A program made the position numbers and the translations under genes. Under the pieces are notes generated by a model. The model saw only the letters and a program-made list of their open reading frames with translations, searched no databases and had not been told where the DNA came from. Positions 55,942 through 62,717 of a stretch of DNA of 62,717 nucleotides are shown piece by piece (position 1 is the first letter of the stretch; the number at the start of each line of letters is the position of its first letter). Source of the DNA: Solobacterium sp. (GTDB taxonomy: Bacteria > Bacillota_I > Bacilli_A > Erysipelotrichales > Erysipelotrichaceae); contig JAFYHC010000019.1 in NCBI GenBank assembly GCA_017539385.1, positions 1-62,717 on the forward strand, given 5' to 3'.

Positions 55942-57096
55942 CTATTCGCCGAACCCCGCGATCCCTATCTTCTTGCCGACCATGTCATCACTGATGCCCA
56001 GCGTCGTCCCGTCGCTTCCCTCAGCGATCACATTGTCCCGCTTCGTGACGGCACTGCTTCGCAATACAGCAGGCACACCATTGTCATAGACCGGTTCATA
56101 TACGACCGACGGCTTGCTTTCATTCCATGTACGCACCGTCCCGTTCCACAGTCCGTTGACGACGCTTCCTTCGCGGAAGAGTGCAAAGTGATTCAGTCCC
56201 ATCGTATAGGAACAGTACTCGGTCTGTGCACCCTGCGGAATATCGTTTTCCCACTGTCCGTCTGCGTAGTATTTCTGATACGTTACGCCGGATGTATTGG
56301 AATACAGATTCACGCCCAGCAGGATACCATGTCCCTGCCGCACATCTCCGTCATAATCACCATAATAGAACACTGCACCGCCGGCACCGCTTGGATACAG
56401 GCCTGCCTTCAGGCCGCTTGTCTCTACAATGATCGGCTGCGGATCTTCGGCATAATGCATGCGTACGATCAGATTGCGGTAATCCTGTGTATTCAATGCG
56501 CTCAATGCGCCTTCATAATCCCGCTGCACAAGGAATTTCTGAGCATCTTCTGCGATCAATTGCAGACGGGAGCGGATCTCTGCGTCATCCCGGGAACCGG
56601 TGATCTCTTCCAGCATTGCGGAGCACCTGCGTCCCGACACATGCTTCACGCCATCTTCCAGCACCAGCACCGCACTTTCATACGCACCCTGGCGCATATT
56701 GAAATCGGCCCATGTGCAGTACATTTCATCTTCCGCATCGATCACGATATCAGGATCTTTGAGAAACTGTCTTCCCTCATCCAGCATCGCCAATGCATCT
56801 TCGTAATATGCCCTGTATACAGCGTATGCACTGCAGCGTACCAGTGCATTGGATATTTCCGTATCATTCCCATTCACTTCATATGACTTCTTTAACAGGT
56901 CCACACTTTCCTCATACCGGCCCTGTGCAGCAGCCCGCTGTGCTTCCGTTATGCGGTTTCTGGCAACGATATGCGTCTGATTGAGTGACAGCCAGAACCA
57001 TGCCAGAAATCCGGCAATGGCGAATACGGCAATGACACCGAGAAAGGTCATGAAACTGAATGGTCTGCGTATTTTGCGTACTTTCTTCTTTGCCAT
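55942..57096 (-). CDS. Membrane-anchored TPR / MORN-like protein
   Basis: The 384-aa protein has a basic N-terminus (AKKKVRKIRRP), one membrane helix (about 15-38) and an extracellular region. The first half shows three to four TPR-like helix pairs (AQGRYEESVDLLKKSYEVN ... RAYYEDALAMLDEGR ... RQGAYESAVLVLEDG). The second half has Gly/Tyr-rich MORN-like strands (YYGDYDGDVRQGHGILLG, YYADGQWENDIPQG, VVNGLWNGTVRTW). The likely role is a scaffold at the outer face of the membrane. It is first in the minus-strand operon and divergent, by 80 bp, from the LRR receptor operon. Confidence 0.75.
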   Translation of the reverse strand: MAKKKVRKIRRPFSFMTFLGVIAVFAIAGFLAWFWLSLNQTHIVARNRITEAQRAAAQGRYEESVDLLKKSYEVNGNDTEISNALVRCSAYAVYRAYYEDALAMLDEGRQFLKDPDIVIDAEDEMYCTWADFNMRQGAYESAVLVLEDGVKHVSGRRCSAMLEEITGSRDDAEIRSRLQLIAEDAQKFLVQRDYEGALSALNTQDYRNLIVRMHYAEDPQPIIVETSGLKAGLYPSGAGGAVFYYGDYDGDVRQGHGILLGVNLYSNTSGVTYQKYYADGQWENDIPQGAQTEYCSYTMGLNHFALFREGSVVNGLWNGTVRTWNESKPSVVYEPVYDNGVPAVLRSSAVTKRDNVIAEGSDGTTLGISDDMVGKKIGIAGFGE

Positions 57097-57176
57097 TTTA
57101 GTAATCCCCTCTTTCTCCCGTATTATAACAATGGAAACGGTCCCATGATATAATTTTACTGCAGAACGGAGTTTTT

Positions 57177-59900
57177 ATGGGATATTTGAAACAGGCTGAA
57201 AACCGATGCTTTTTCTGTATGCGTTCACTGAATGACAATGGACAGTGCACATGCAGTTACTCGCACGAATATACCGTTCATATCGATACCCTGCATTCCC
57301 TCCGGCTTCATCAGGAACGGTGGCTCGAAGGCATGGTATGGGAAGAAACGAAGGACGGTGTTTTGCATATTGCCTGCGATCTGCAGAATGATGCACGTGT
57401 TCTGCTTCTGCAGTGCAATAACAAGGCACCGGAAGAAGCTTTGGAACAGTTTGAAGAAAACGGACAGACATGGGCTGTACTGCCCTTGTCCATGCGTACG
57501 CTTTCTGCCCGTGTGCAGAAGGAAGGACCGCTGTCAATCAAGGAAGCCAATCGCATCCTGCAGAATATCGTTTCGGAATGTGATGCGAAACACATAGAAG
57601 CACAATTCCCGCTGCTCAGTCCGGATACGCTCTTTGCCGGTCCGGACGGGATCCTGGAGTATGATCCATCCGGTTATGAACTGCCTTTATCCGGCTATAC
57701 AGCACCGGAATATTACCGGGGAAATGCACTGAGCGGTGCCAGTGACTGCTATGCGGCCGCCGCAGTGCTGTATTATGCCGTAACCGGCATTACACCGCCG
57801 GACGCCTATGAACGTCTGGTGCAGGATGCACTGATCCCGCCGCATGAGCTTGGTGCTTCGCTTTCCGAAACAGAAGAACACACGCTTCAGGAAGCACTTT
57901 CCCTTTCCCCTGAATCCCGTTATTCCTTTGTGCAGACATCTGTGTCAGATGCAGAAACCACCGGCAGAGGAAAACCATCTGCTGTCCATCTGACAAGACG
58001 CCATATCCTCTCCCTGTCCCTCCTGCTTGTCGTCGCCCTCTCCCTGGGTCTTTATCTCATTACAGCAGGACACAATGACAATCCCTGGCGGGAAGAAGAA
58101 AGCGGTGCCTCTATCATTGAAAACGAAGACATCACTGCCGACATGATCCGCCGGATCATACAGGATGAACAGACTGTCTCTCTGGAATTGTCACAATGTT
58201 CGCTCAGCGATGCCATTCTGGAAGACATTGCCAAGTGCTCTCATATCAATATTCTGAGGCTGGACAGCTGCACCGGGTATCATTCACTGGATATGTTTGC
58301 GGATTCTTCCCTCAGCGATCTGACATTGATCCAAAGTGAAGACATCGACGGCAATACGCTGCTGTCCGTGGATCTTCCCTCTGTGACAACACTGGAACTG
58401 ATCACTTCCCCGTATTGTTTCTTTCAGGATCCTGATCTGTTCCTGATGCACTTCCCATCCGTTTCTACCGTCCGGATCGCCGGCTTTGAGCATCTTTCCG
58501 ATCTTTCCTTCGCAGAGCATATGCCGCAATTGACCGCACTGGATCTTGTTTCAGCAGAAGGCAGCCGGATGCTGGAAGGTATCTCTTCCGCACCGCTCGC
58601 CGCATGTACAGAATTATCTATTCTCCATGCGGATCATACCGGTCTCTATGATCTTTCCGGACTGGAGGATCTTGCATCATTGAATATTCTTTCCCTGAAA
58701 GAGAACGGAATTCGCAATCTTTCCCCGCTGAAAGACCACACTGCTCTGGCCTATCTGGATCTTTCCGATAATCCCATCGATGACATCTCACCGCTGGCTG
58801 GAAATACGTCTCTTGCAACACTGGTGCTGAACGGTACGCATATCACCGACCTGTCCGCACTTTCCAATATGCAGGAGCTTGCTGTTCTTTCCGCCGCTGA
58901 TACATGGATCCATTCTGCTGAGGCACTGCGCAGTATTCCTGCCCTGACTGCTCTGGATCTGTCACGCACCTATATTACCGATATTTCCTTTCTGGAAGGA
59001 CATACGGAACTGACCTCTCTGGCAATCCATGAGACCGGTGTATCCGATCTCTCTCCGCTTTCCGCCATGGCTAAGCTGGTCTATCTGGATGCCGGACGCT
59101 GTGCGCTCATGTCGGCACATGGGCTTGAAAACTGCACCAATCTCTATTCACTGGATCTTTCCCGGAATATGCTGAGTGATCTCGCACCGCTGGAAGAGCG
59201 CACCTATCCCGAGCTGCGCAGTCTGCGCATCGGTTTTAACGGGATTTCGGATATTCATGCTCTGGCCAATATGCCAAAGCTGCAGGACGTCGCCATCGAA
59301 GCAAACCGCATCTATGATCTGCGTCCATTGGAACAGGCAAAAGACCTGCGCATCTTGATTGCCTATCAGAACAGTTTCACGGATATTTCCTTCCTGCCGC
59401 TGCAGAATGTGCAGTATCTGGATCTTGGCTATACCGGTATCACAGATATACATGTCCTGTCCGCCATGGAAAAAGAAAATACTGTCATCCTGCTGGATCA
59501 CTGCCGGATACAGGATCTCACCCTGCCCCCTCATGCGCCAAAGCGTCTCGATCTCTATGGCAATGCGATCCATGATCTTTCCGCACTGGCATCCTGTACC
59601 AGAACAGAAGGCACATCGCCTTCTCTTGGCTTTACATGGCATTCAGGCATCGATTATGCACCGGTATTGCGATCCCCCTGGGAATCCAATATTACAATTG
59701 CAGAAATGACAGATGCCGATAAGGCTGATATCCTTCATAAGATCGTTGAAGCAAAAGGGCAGGATGCCGTAGAACCGGCATGGGTCAGCGGGGAAGAAGC
59801 TGACCGTCTCGTCAATGAATTCCGCAGTCAGTCGGAAGACAGCTTCCCGCTGGAAGAAGACACGATCGTGATCGGGGAGGTGAACAATGCATCCTTCTGA
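57177..59900 (+). CDS. Zinc-ribbon / pseudokinase / TM / LRR receptor-like protein
   Basis: The 907-aa protein starts with a short zinc-ribbon-like motif (C11xxC14, C24xC26). Residues about 50-255 resemble the C-lobe of a protein kinase: LLSPDTLFAGPDG at the catalytic-loop position, YTAPEYYRG like the APE motif, and GASDCYAAAAVLYYAVTG like subdomain IX. There is no glycine loop, no catalytic HRD Asp and no DFG, so it should be inactive. One membrane helix follows (276-297), then an LRR array of about 500 residues (LDLSxNxIxDISPL type), presumably outside. The next gene overlaps by 14 nt. The form is that of a receptor whose cytosolic pseudokinase speaks to the FHA-like/ABC partner. Confidence 0.78.
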   Translation: MGYLKQAENRCFFCMRSLNDNGQCTCSYSHEYTVHIDTLHSLRLHQERWLEGMVWEETKDGVLHIACDLQNDARVLLLQCNNKAPEEALEQFEENGQTWAVLPLSMRTLSARVQKEGPLSIKEANRILQNIVSECDAKHIEAQFPLLSPDTLFAGPDGILEYDPSGYELPLSGYTAPEYYRGNALSGASDCYAAAAVLYYAVTGITPPDAYERLVQDALIPPHELGASLSETEEHTLQEALSLSPESRYSFVQTSVSDAETTGRGKPSAVHLTRRHILSLSLLLVVALSLGLYLITAGHNDNPWREEESGASIIENEDITADMIRRIIQDEQTVSLELSQCSLSDAILEDIAKCSHINILRLDSCTGYHSLDMFADSSLSDLTLIQSEDIDGNTLLSVDLPSVTTLELITSPYCFFQDPDLFLMHFPSVSTVRIAGFEHLSDLSFAEHMPQLTALDLVSAEGSRMLEGISSAPLAACTELSILHADHTGLYDLSGLEDLASLNILSLKENGIRNLSPLKDHTALAYLDLSDNPIDDISPLAGNTSLATLVLNGTHITDLSALSNMQELAVLSAADTWIHSAEALRSIPALTALDLSRTYITDISFLEGHTELTSLAIHETGVSDLSPLSAMAKLVYLDAGRCALMSAHGLENCTNLYSLDLSRNMLSDLAPLEERTYPELRSLRIGFNGISDIHALANMPKLQDVAIEANRIYDLRPLEQAKDLRILIAYQNSFTDISFLPLQNVQYLDLGYTGITDIHVLSAMEKENTVILLDHCRIQDLTLPPHAPKRLDLYGNAIHDLSALASCTRTEGTSPSLGFTWHSGIDYAPVLRSPWESNITIAEMTDADKADILHKIVEAKGQDAVEPAWVSGEEADRLVNEFRSQSEDSFPLEEDTIVIGEVNNASF

Positions 59901-61224
59901 AACTATTGTATTGATGCTGTTTTCTGCACGTGCGCATCTTTTTGACATTGTCCTGAACCGTCCGAAAGAGATCGGCCGTGCCTGCTTTGACAACGATGCG
60001 GACATTGCCGTTCCTTCCCTTTCCTTCTCCCACCGCCAGGGACGCTTTACCCCGCAGGGCAATACCGTCCTCTATGAGGACTACGAAAGCAAGTCTTCCA
60101 TTTCCCTGCATAACGGCAGTCTGTTCCGTCTGCCTGCCTCTGCGCCAAAAGAGAAGCAATTGCGTATACTTGTAAGCATTGGTTCATCTTCATATACATG
60201 GTCATCGACAGCGCTGATCGGGAAAGAAGAGATCGATATCGCTGATACCTCGCTTGTATTAGAGCGCAGTGATCCGGACTGGAAGCTGCGGTCCGCTTCC
60301 GGAAACAGCATCTCGCTTCCCTGCGCATCCCCGCTGCTTGTCCGCCATACGATTCTGTACCGCAGTGAGGAAATGCTCTGGATGGGCGTTCCTGCTGCTG
60401 TGACCAATGGCATTGATCTCCTGCAGATCGATATCGATAAATGCACTGTTTCCACTGCCCAGGGACCGCGTGTCCTGCTGGAAGATATTCATACATCTGT
60501 CAAAGACGGCTCCATGGTATTGATCATCGGCGCCTCCGGAGCCGGCAAGACTACGTTCATGCATGCAGTCATGGGCTATGAACCGGCCGAAGGTCAGATT
60601 CTCTTTCATGAGAAAGATCTGTACAAAGAGCGCGATGCCCTGCGTCAGGAAATCGGCTATGTTCCCCAGAAAGACCTGCTGCGTGATGCCATGACCGTGC
60701 GCGAAACGCTCAATCTTGCTATTCAGCGCAAGGCACCGCAATGTGACGCTGCGGTACGCACCCGCCAATTGCTGGAATTGTTTGGTCTGGAAAAAGAGGA
60801 AGAGACGCTGGTACGGTCTCTCAGCGGCGGCCAGCGCAAACGTGTCAGCTGTGCTGTGGAATTTGCATCCCGTCCATCCCTGCTCTTCCTGGATGAACCG
60901 GATACAGGTCTGGACGCTGTCATGAGCGCGGGACTGATGAAGCATCTGCGTCATATCGCCGATCTTGGCACGACCGTCTTTGTCATCACTCATACCCCGG
61001 ACCGCTGCCGGGATCTCTTCGATCAGGTGCTTGTCTTCGCTTACAGCGATCAATACAATACCGGACGGCTTGCCTACAGCGGTACGATACCGGATGCCCT
61101 GCGTTTCTTCTCTGTTTCTTCCCTGGATGCCATTGTGACAACTGTCAGCCGCAAAGAAGATGGCGGAATGGGAGAAGCCGACCGGTATATTCAGGAATTT
61201 GCGGCAGAAAGGGATGCCTCATGA
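59887..61224 (+). CDS. FHA-like domain fused to an ABC ATPase (ABCG-like)
   Basis: The 445-aa protein has an N-terminal half (1-190) with FHA-like features: KEIGRACFDNDADI followed by SLSFSHRQGRF, echoing the GR...SR.H phosphothreonine-binding pattern; a second half-copy may follow at 105-170. The ATPase domain has Walker A GASGAGKT (215-222), signature LSGGQRKR (312-319), Walker B LLFLDEPDTGLD and an H-loop FVITHTPDR. Unlike full ABCG proteins, the membrane part is a separate gene. FHA domains bind phospho-Thr made by Hanks-type kinases, and a degenerate one is encoded just upstream. Confidence 0.85.
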   Translation: MHPSETIVLMLFSARAHLFDIVLNRPKEIGRACFDNDADIAVPSLSFSHRQGRFTPQGNTVLYEDYESKSSISLHNGSLFRLPASAPKEKQLRILVSIGSSSYTWSSTALIGKEEIDIADTSLVLERSDPDWKLRSASGNSISLPCASPLLVRHTILYRSEEMLWMGVPAAVTNGIDLLQIDIDKCTVSTAQGPRVLLEDIHTSVKDGSMVLIIGASGAGKTTFMHAVMGYEPAEGQILFHEKDLYKERDALRQEIGYVPQKDLLRDAMTVRETLNLAIQRKAPQCDAAVRTRQLLELFGLEKEEETLVRSLSGGQRKRVSCAVEFASRPSLLFLDEPDTGLDAVMSAGLMKHLRHIADLGTTVFVITHTPDRCRDLFDQVLVFAYSDQYNTGRLAYSGTIPDALRFFSVSSLDAIVTTVSRKEDGGMGEADRYIQEFAAERDAS

Positions 61225-62015
61225 AACAGCGTCTTCACCAGTTAAAACTCAGCCTGCTTCAATGTCATACCGTCTTTCTGCGGGAGAAAGGCTGGAAGTC
61301 CTTCTTGTCTGCCCTGATCATGACGGTTCTGATCACCATGGTCACAACAGAAGACCTCTATGTACGCTCACAGGCGACCGAAACCGGCATGTTTACCCTT
61401 GCCTGCGCCTGCATATGGTCGGGTCTCTTCCAGTCTTTGCGTACGATCTGCCGGGAACGCGCGATCGTAAAGCGGGAACACGCGACCGGCCTGCATATTT
61501 CTTCGTATGTATTGGGCAGATGGCTGTATGAAGCCTGCATCTGCGTTGTACTTGCTCTGATCATCAATACGGTCATGTGGATCGCCAACCAGACACGCTA
61601 TACCCAAAGTGCCATACTGTTTACACCCTATATCGAATATGGGATCACCTGCTTCTTCATCCTGTTCGCTTCGGATTCCCTTGGCATTGCCATTTCCGCA
61701 TCCGTGCGCAATGAAAACAGTGCACTCACTGTGATGCCATTCGCTTTGATCCTGCAACTGATCCTGGGCGGTCTGATCTTTCCGCTCAAAGGCATTCCAA
61801 AAATACTCTCTGCGCTGACTGTCAGCCGCTGGGGACTGAATGCATTATGCATCACTGCCCGCGTCAATGCACTGGATGGCTACGTGCTCAAAGATGCCTA
61901 TGCAATGACCGCATCCAACCTCACGCACATGTGGCTGATCCTGTTCGGCTTTGCAGTATTGTACGCAGCCATCGCAGTCCTGGTGCTGGAGTTCATCGAT
62001 TCCGATCCCCGCTGA
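61221..62015 (+). CDS. ABC-2 type transporter permease
   Basis: The 264-aa protein has six membrane helices and the ABC-2 family order: a first cytosolic coupling region with SLRTICRERAIVKREHATGLHISSYVL (the RE-x2-GL coupling-helix pattern of ABCG-type permeases), then paired helices and a LGGLIFPLKGIP turn. It overlaps the ATPase gene by 4 nt and pairs with it. Direction and substrate of transport are unknown. Confidence 0.88.
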   Translation: MKQRLHQLKLSLLQCHTVFLREKGWKSFLSALIMTVLITMVTTEDLYVRSQATETGMFTLACACIWSGLFQSLRTICRERAIVKREHATGLHISSYVLGRWLYEACICVVLALIINTVMWIANQTRYTQSAILFTPYIEYGITCFFILFASDSLGIAISASVRNENSALTVMPFALILQLILGGLIFPLKGIPKILSALTVSRWGLNALCITARVNALDGYVLKDAYAMTASNLTHMWLILFGFAVLYAAIAVLVLEFIDSDPR

Positions 62016-62043
62016 TCTGTCCTTCATGACAGATCTTTTTCTT
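62014..62043 (+). terminator. Terminator of the LRR-FHA-ABC operon
   Basis: An 8-bp stem GATCTGTC/GACAGATC with a 6-nt loop is followed by T5. Confidence 0.85.
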
Positions 62044-62080: not shown

Positions 62081-62717
62081 TTACAGATAGATATAGCCGA
62101 CCAGGCTCTTTGTACCGGTTCCCCAGGTACTGACCCAGCGTTCCATATAATGTCCGAGATATCCGCCTTCCTTGATATAGACGCTTGCACCGTCTGCGGA
62201 TACAGCTGCGACATAGGCAACGTGTCCATAGTAGACTGCGATCGAATTGACACGCGGTGTCTGACCGACATCGTAGCCGTCATTTGCGGCAGCCGCATAC
62301 CAGTTGGTGGAATATCCCCAGTTCGGCAGACAAATGCCGGCATACAGATAGGCAAGTTCCCACGCACCGGATGTGCAGTTGCCATAGCCGCCGCCAAACG
62401 GATTGTAGGACGGTCCCTTTACGCGGGAATCAAAGTCCGCATTGCTGTAGGTACGCATACCGCAGGAAGCACAGTAATTCGCAAACTCTGCCGAACGGTA
62501 GAAACCGATCAGAAGATCACTGCGGCTTTCTCCGTTATTGAGGAAAGCAGTCCAGCTAGCGACTTCCTGGTTGGACGGTGTCCGGTTCAGGATCGCCTGA
62601 TACGCTGCACGTACATATGCACTGTTCGACAGCTTTCTTCCGATCATCTCCGCTGAATTGAAGAAGCCGTTCGCTGTCCCTGCTGCTGTATTCGTTCCGT
62701 TCAGGATCCGTGCTGTC
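62081..62717 (-). CDS. DUF4214 protein with C-terminal CHAP-type domain, 3' part
   Basis: The frame stays open to the right edge of the window, beyond the first internal ATG at 62647, so the start lies outside. The visible part begins within DUF4214 repeats (GFFNSAEMIGRKLSNSAYVR ... LLIGFYRSAEFANYC). It ends with a CHAP-type amidase domain: catalytic Cys in GGGYGNCTSGAW, His in YYGHVAYVAAV and the following EGGYLGHY. CHAP enzymes cut peptidoglycan. Here the catalytic domain follows the DUF4214 module, the reverse of the four related proteins at 21-35 kb. Confidence 0.85.
   Translation of the reverse strand, partial: TARILNGTNTAAGTANGFFNSAEMIGRKLSNSAYVRAAYQAILNRTPSNQEVASWTAFLNNGESRSDLLIGFYRSAEFANYCASCGMRTYSNADFDSRVKGPSYNPFGGGYGNCTSGAWELAYLYAGICLPNWGYSTNWYAAAANDGYDVGQTPRVNSIAVYYGHVAYVAAVSADGASVYIKEGGYLGHYMERWVSTWGTGTKSLVGYIYL

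Follow-up and report, generated by a model that had tools for sequence, protein, structure and literature searches.

A trio of LRR pseudokinase receptor, FHA-like/ABC ATPase and ABC-2 permease in Solobacterium sp. as a candidate exporter with phosphate-free gating

We analyzed a 62,717-nucleotide stretch of Solobacterium sp. DNA (assembly GCA_017539385.1, contig JAFYHC010000019.1), hereafter the window, in which three overlapping genes encode a leucine-rich repeat (LRR) receptor with a dead kinase domain, an ATP-binding cassette (ABC) ATPase with a damaged forkhead-associated (FHA) domain, and an ABC-2 type permease; this set is called the trio below. In Mycobacterium tuberculosis, the kinase PknF and Rv1747, an FHA-ABC exporter, are encoded in a two-gene operon, the exporter is positively modulated by PknF, and their interaction in the yeast two-hybrid system needs both FHA domains, according to the passages of PMC3908365 on this pair. 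Rv1747 was proposed, not proven, to export phosphatidylinositol mannoside (PIM) glycolipids (PMC5549992, passage on this protein). As in this operon, the kinase-fold gene of the window lies directly upstream of the FHA-ABC gene on one strand; Rv1747 is of the ABCG type. Unlike the mycobacterial pair, with its active kinase and its fused ATPase and permease, the window has a dead kinase, an FHA domain that has lost its pocket, and a permease encoded by a separate gene. To our knowledge, PknF–Rv1747 has no LRR ectodomain. The related trios with live kinases fit the PknF–Rv1747 scheme, extended by an LRR sensor.

The nearest working model for the dead trio is type VIIb secretion. The pseudokinase YukC copurifies with the FHA region of YukB, in which the pocket residues are not conserved; independence from phosphorylation was deduced by the authors from the use of Escherichia coli as host and the absence of the pocket residues (relevant part of PMC9600267). 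Association of EssB requires FHA2 of EssC, as stated in an excerpt of PMC9436818. The window shares with YukC/EssB and YukB/EssC a transmembrane (TM) pseudokinase with an extracellular domain, an N-terminal FHA domain on the motor ATPase, and the loss of pocket residues. It differs in that type VIIb secretion has an ATPase of another class and protein cargo, and that its outside part is helical where the window has LRRs. The EssC-type ATPase is FtsK-type; the ATPase of the window is not, belonging to ABC_tran (PF00005).

In MviN (Rv3910) and FhaA, as in the products of the window, a pseudokinase in a bacterial membrane has an FHA protein as its partner: the MviN pseudokinase tail is phosphorylated by PknB and then recruits FhaA, as given in a section of PMC12599244, which also names the bacterial pseudokinase families ActPs1-3, GLW, CP1, DYD, and DLHK. 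Unlike the window, MviN–FhaA is not an ABC exporter, and its phosphate is supplied by PknB. A survey of 2005 mentioned a single kinase with LRRs, from Pseudomonas aeruginosa (PMC1262709, passage on this protein).

Plant LRR receptor-like kinases also have LRRs outside, one TM helix, and the kinase inside. Their domain order along the chain is reversed with respect to the window receptor, and we infer convergence, not membership. No description of a kinase-LRR/FHA-ABC/ABC-2 trio was found among the matches listed in searches of open-licence PMC papers, which leave out most subscription papers and all preprints. The sequence-only reading of this DNA had likewise known of no described system with this set; the matches listed agree with this for the LRR version, but a similar principle is in print for PknF–Rv1747 (passages of PMC3908365 on the pair).

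Kinase fold, FHA fold, and transport motor of the trio

The sequence-only reading had recognized an LRR receptor with a degenerate kinase, an FHA-like/ABC ATPase, and an ABC-2 permease in three overlapping genes, which was confirmed by open reading frames (ORFs), domains, and structure models. Both folds by which it could be checked were found in the predicted models: a two-lobed Hanks-type kinase fold in receptor residues 40–263 and an FHA beta-sandwich in ATPase residues 1–101. The PknF kinase domain (7naa) was among the structural matches of the former; those of the latter included Rv1747 FHA-1 (6ccd) and the MviN–FhaA complex 3oun.

Receptor homologs were searched with the first 310 residues against 5.8 billion proteins. 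Five entries matched: the window's own receptor, P0005, P0006, and two kinases without LRRs. P0005 is a metagenomic receptor of 910 aa (44% identity) of the same dead type. The catalytic Lys, HRD, and DFG were all gone in both the window receptor and P0005, and the alignment showed that the glycine loop and the HRD Asn were replaced as well; an Asp close to the DFG position remains in both. The kinase of P0006 (1147 aa) is live-looking, and its alignment spans the whole chain, including the LRRs and the C-terminal module. The ectodomain of P0006 is nearly identical to that of L137, a locus that is cut at the contig end but has an FHA-ABC ATPase and a permease.

The phosphothreonine-pocket columns of the first FHA domain of the window read G R S Q S, that is, the Gly-Arg pair and the Ser are kept and the His and Asn are lost; residues of a second FHA domain are absent. 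The same columns are G R Q H Q in P0010 and G R A Q R in P0011, neither with a recognizable second FHA domain, so that none of the three ATPases (window, P0002; P0010; P0011) has an FHA domain with Arg, Ser, and His (0/3). Judging from these residues, the FHA domain neighboring the receptor cannot be expected to read phosphothreonine. The three dead ATPases form one clade (support 100), the position of which within the FHA-ABC family was not settled by the tree. All ATPase motifs of the window protein are intact, and together with the ABC-2 permease they make up an exporter of the ABC-2 (ABCG-like) type. In the window, the writing and the reading side of the phosphate switch have both been lost while the motor motifs are intact.

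The trio in other bacteria and the ancestry of the dead form

Genome contigs were scanned with an alignment of four FHA-ABC ATPases, and the best 80 of 349 loci were kept, a sample biased toward the relatives of the window. The ATPase ORF was found by script in 74 of them; six loci outside the ORF filter (L091, L108, L117, L131, L136, and L140) were read by motif patterns, with Pfam support for L117. The ATPase carried an FHA domain in 59/80 loci; none was detected in 21/80 (L123 is cut at the contig end). Upstream of the 59 FHA-carrying ATPases we found a kinase-TM-LRR receptor in 27 loci, an LRR gene cut at the contig end in 3, a kinase without LRRs in 1, no called gene in 4, and another or unread gene in 24; the latter include L091, L108, L136, and L140, where both patterns were absent and the gene is otherwise unclassified. 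The 21 ATPases without a detected FHA domain were preceded by a TIR-LRR gene in one case, by none in two, and by something else in 18, never by a kinase-LRR gene. The contrast of 27/59 against 0/21 gave a Fisher p of 3.5e-5, which is inflated by related loci.

Six of the 27 kinase-LRR loci belong to Coriobacteriaceae/Atopobiaceae (Actinomycetota) and the others to Bacillota by title, L084 being without lineage. The order of receptor and ATPase is thus kept beyond close relatives (27/80 loci, two phyla), as the sequence-only reading requires. Only the receptor (30 loci), the ATPase (29, the 30th, in L117, being missed by the ORF filter), and the permease (27) recurred in at least four of the 30 receptor loci, counting ORFs of at least 100 aa in flanks of up to 8 kb, with several contigs shorter. 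In 22 of the 26 kinase-LRR loci read by script, the permease came next. No cargo gene recurs in the neighborhoods of the 30 receptor loci. With the order conserved in two phyla and both folds present in the models, the receptor/FHA-ABC/permease unit is well supported. Family libraries offer only generic domain names for the parts of the live trio.

The divergent TPR/MORN gene, which the sequence-only reading noted 80 bp away and wished to include in a neighborhood search, lies outside the conserved unit: it has no relative in 100 loci (tblastn, E 1), and no fourth family recurs in at least 4/30 loci.

Live trios, for example L105, L084, and L141, have the receptor–ATPase order of the window and an ectodomain homologous to that of its receptor, but they keep the catalytic residues and at least one FHA pocket. 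HRD and DFG were present in 26/26 aligned kinases, plus L117 by pattern, and the beta-3 Lys in 25/25 kinases that reach this position (L101 is cut). At least one FHA domain with Arg, Ser, and His was present in 27/27 kinase-LRR loci, in 26/27 also with Asn (both FHA domains of L125 are without it). Single damaged FHA domains occur in several of these loci, e.g., FHA1 of L102, L104, L084, and L098.

In an ectodomain tree of 34 rows, built by a quick method with SH-aLRT support only, no bootstrap, and no inferred root, the two dead receptors formed one clade (100) within a set of 17 rows (96). All other members of this set with a readable kinase were live (14/14), the nearest of them being L103 (88). 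Since the dead receptors nest among them, the live kinase state is likely ancestral.

Three others of 70 genomes of the same genus matched the receptor pair at E 1e-20. The match in G235 covers the cap, LRR, and C-terminal parts, and its kinase is live; the matches in G244 and G227 are limited to the LRR stretch. Among 272 genomes of the family, a full-length match to the short ATPase type was found only in the window's own genome; with 1/272, the dead variant is rare.

Gating mechanism and rival explanations

In the trio, FHA-ABC export regulated by a kinase takes a variant form. The comparison makes a good case that phospho-chemistry was lost in a coupled way, and the three proteins likely form an exporter together. 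By analogy with type VIIb secretion, we see about an even chance that the receptor senses an outside signal and gates export with its dead kinase docked directly, and without phosphate, on the dead FHA domain. That phospho-signaling was lost from both partners at once, and that direct pseudokinase–pseudoFHA contact passes LRR ligand binding mechanically to the ABC pump, is a proposal we hold with slightly less than even confidence. In live trios, the receptor kinase would act on the FHA-ABC ATPase by phosphorylation, as PknF does on Rv1747; in the lineage of the window, phosphorylation would have been replaced by direct docking, a mechanism with a precedent in YukC/EssB and YukB/EssC. Ligand binding to the LRRs outside may alter the transport rate. 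The cargo may be a general envelope component, because no cargo gene was seen traveling with the trio. Docking, gating, ligand, and cargo are what we infer here. The sequence-only reading had an extracellular signal pass from the LRRs through the pseudokinase to the FHA-ABC ATPase. Its receptor/FHA-ABC/permease unit stands; the phosphothreonine route, which fits the relatives with live kinases, does not hold for the window, where kinase and FHA pocket are both destroyed and phosphate-free docking therefore fits better.

Several points weigh against this proposal. The kinase model was built with live homologs in the alignment, and it superposes no better than at a root-mean-square deviation of 7.9. 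Only the window shows a dead kinase and a dead FHA domain linked on the same DNA, with P0005, P0010, and P0011 known as single proteins, and the two losses together count as a single event in one lineage. The ectodomain tree comes from a quick method without bootstrap, and odd residue make-up was flagged for both dead receptors. Another or unread gene precedes the ATPase in 24/59 FHA loci, so FHA-ABC ATPases also occur without a kinase-LRR receptor. The stem of the dead ATPase clade is long (1.24 changes per column), which may mean relaxed constraint; loss of regulation, leaving a constitutive pump, would produce similar FHA decay.

Such a constitutive exporter, with signaling lost and the receptor and FHA-like domain retained as leftovers for assembly or stability only, is the subject of an alternative we consider unlikely. 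It would account for key residues gone from both signaling domains beside intact ATPase motifs, and for the long stem branch. However, the full architecture is kept in receptors of 907 and 910 aa. Identity between the window receptor and P0005 is 42.5% and 48.6% in the pseudokinase lobes and 47.0% in the LRRs, which points to similar constraint on the dead domain and on the LRRs, and the two receptors agree fully in stretches such as TAPEYYRGN and TGITPPDAYERL. The Asp near the DFG position in these two receptors, and the new chemistry acquired by some kinase-fold proteins (described in part of PMC12599244), bring up a pseudokinase that still binds nucleotide or catalyzes something else, with unrelated FHA decay; with the glycine loop, Lys, HRD, and HRD Asn replaced in both known dead members, we rate this as very improbable.

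Phosphorylation could also come from another cellular kinase acting on the pseudokinase or its tail and so recruiting an FHA protein, as in PknB–MviN–FhaA of mycobacteria. The genome of the window has four kinase-domain matches elsewhere, any of which could phosphorylate the receptor and thus also speaks against direct docking, and one FHA match on contig C67; MviN–FhaA is a described pseudokinase–FHA pair (that part of PMC12599244), and its complex recurs among the structural matches. Yet the neighboring FHA domain is without the pocket His and Asn and without a second FHA domain, and only about 13 residues separate the end of the kinase fold (263) from the start of the TM helix (277), which makes this route rather improbable. 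That the three genes are neighbors without a common function is hardly credible: all evidence is of sequence, but the genes overlap, a terminator-like hairpin follows the third, and the receptor–ATPase order recurs in two phyla.

The finding joins two ideas described separately, kinase-modulated FHA-ABC export (PknF–Rv1747) and phosphate-free pseudokinase–FHA docking (type VIIb). The live trio, which looks like an LRR receptor kinase of the plant type joined to a transporter, occurs in many Bacillota and in Coriobacteria. Live and dead versions in two genomes of one genus (that of the window and G235) are a matched pair, by which the role of a pseudokinase after catalysis becomes testable. If true, the docking proposal would describe how a switch that writes and reads phosphate was turned in nature into an allosteric one, beside the live kinase-LRR exporters of other gut bacteria.

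Gene layout, flanking genes, and related modules

The window is contig C110 of a genome assembly (G000) of 2.7 Mb in 118 contigs. The three genes of the trio (Table 1) overlap by 14 and 4 bases. Promoter-like sites are not enriched in the region (5 against a shuffle mean of 7.4); terminator-like patterns number 9 against a shuffle mean of 4.8.

Table 1. Features of the trio and its flanks (positions in the window)
Feature	Position	Strand	Basis or remark
Promoter-like site, ATAACA - 18 - TATAAT, TG ahead of the second hexamer	57125..57154	+	Consensus match; receptor start codon 22 bp on
Gene of the receptor (907 aa), with Zn-ribbon-like motif, pseudokinase, a single TM helix, and LRR ectodomain	57177..59900	+	P0005 and P0006 homologous along whole length
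CxxC...CxC motif, residues 11-26	57207..57254	+	Similar motif in P0005; likewise in 11/30 receptor ORFs
Pseudokinase fold, residues 40-263, without glycine loop, beta-3 Lys, HRD, DFG	57294..57965	+	Structure model and alignment
TM helix, residues 277-295; kinase side positively charged	58005..58061	+	
Residues 296-907, predicted to lie outside the cell: cap at the N terminus, LRRs of internalin type (about 481-780), EEAD-containing module at the C terminus	58062..59897	+	
FHA-like and ABC ATPase gene, 445 aa	59887..61224	+	
FHA domain, degenerate (residues 1-101): pocket His and Asn lost, Gly-Arg and Ser retained	59887..60189	+	Model and aligned columns
Nucleotide-binding domain: Walker A, signature, Walker B, H-loop all intact	60448..61116	+	
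ABC-2 type permease gene, 264 aa	61221..62015	+	
Terminator-like hairpin with T run, directly 3' of the permease	62014..62035	+	Pattern match

For the protein of the divergent gene upstream (55942–57096), a single TM helix is predicted; it also has a TPR-like region (TPR_14, E 1.4e-4, marginally below the cut-off) and a MORN match at E 0.3 only. A converging gene on the minus strand (62081–62716), cut at the contig end, encodes DUF4214 and CHAP domains and is peptidoglycan-hydrolase-like.

A TIR-TM-LRR receptor (TIR_2, E 2.3e-20) stands beside an ABC ATPase without FHA and an ABC-2 permease in Peptococcaceae bacterium Po218_bin72 (L143:5679-9631), so that an exporter of this type is combined with a topology like that of Toll receptors. 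When 392 genomes of the phylum were searched with this receptor, the only matches at E 1e-30 came from the window's own genome, which has 16 TIR_2 matches in all. On its contig C18 a TIR-LRR protein of 628 aa is encoded (L078:6050-7936), with no ABC exporter of the trio's family called beside it in that locus. TIR_2 plus FHA proteins (P0130 and others, 413–590 aa) and TIR plus PASTA plus LRR proteins were among the 120 matches listed. The modules kinase, TIR, FHA, PASTA, and LRR seem to be shuffled in these bacteria. A swap of kinase for TIR is not claimed as a rule, as it was seen in the Peptococcaceae locus only and TIR–FHA fusions exist (P0130).

On contig C31, the window genome encodes another ABC-2 exporter of the trio's family (L071:151-6218), with a segment of several TM helices and no FHA match. 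Genes for a nitroreductase, alanine racemase, D-Ala-D-Ala ligase, and a VanW domain protein lie upstream of it on the same strand.

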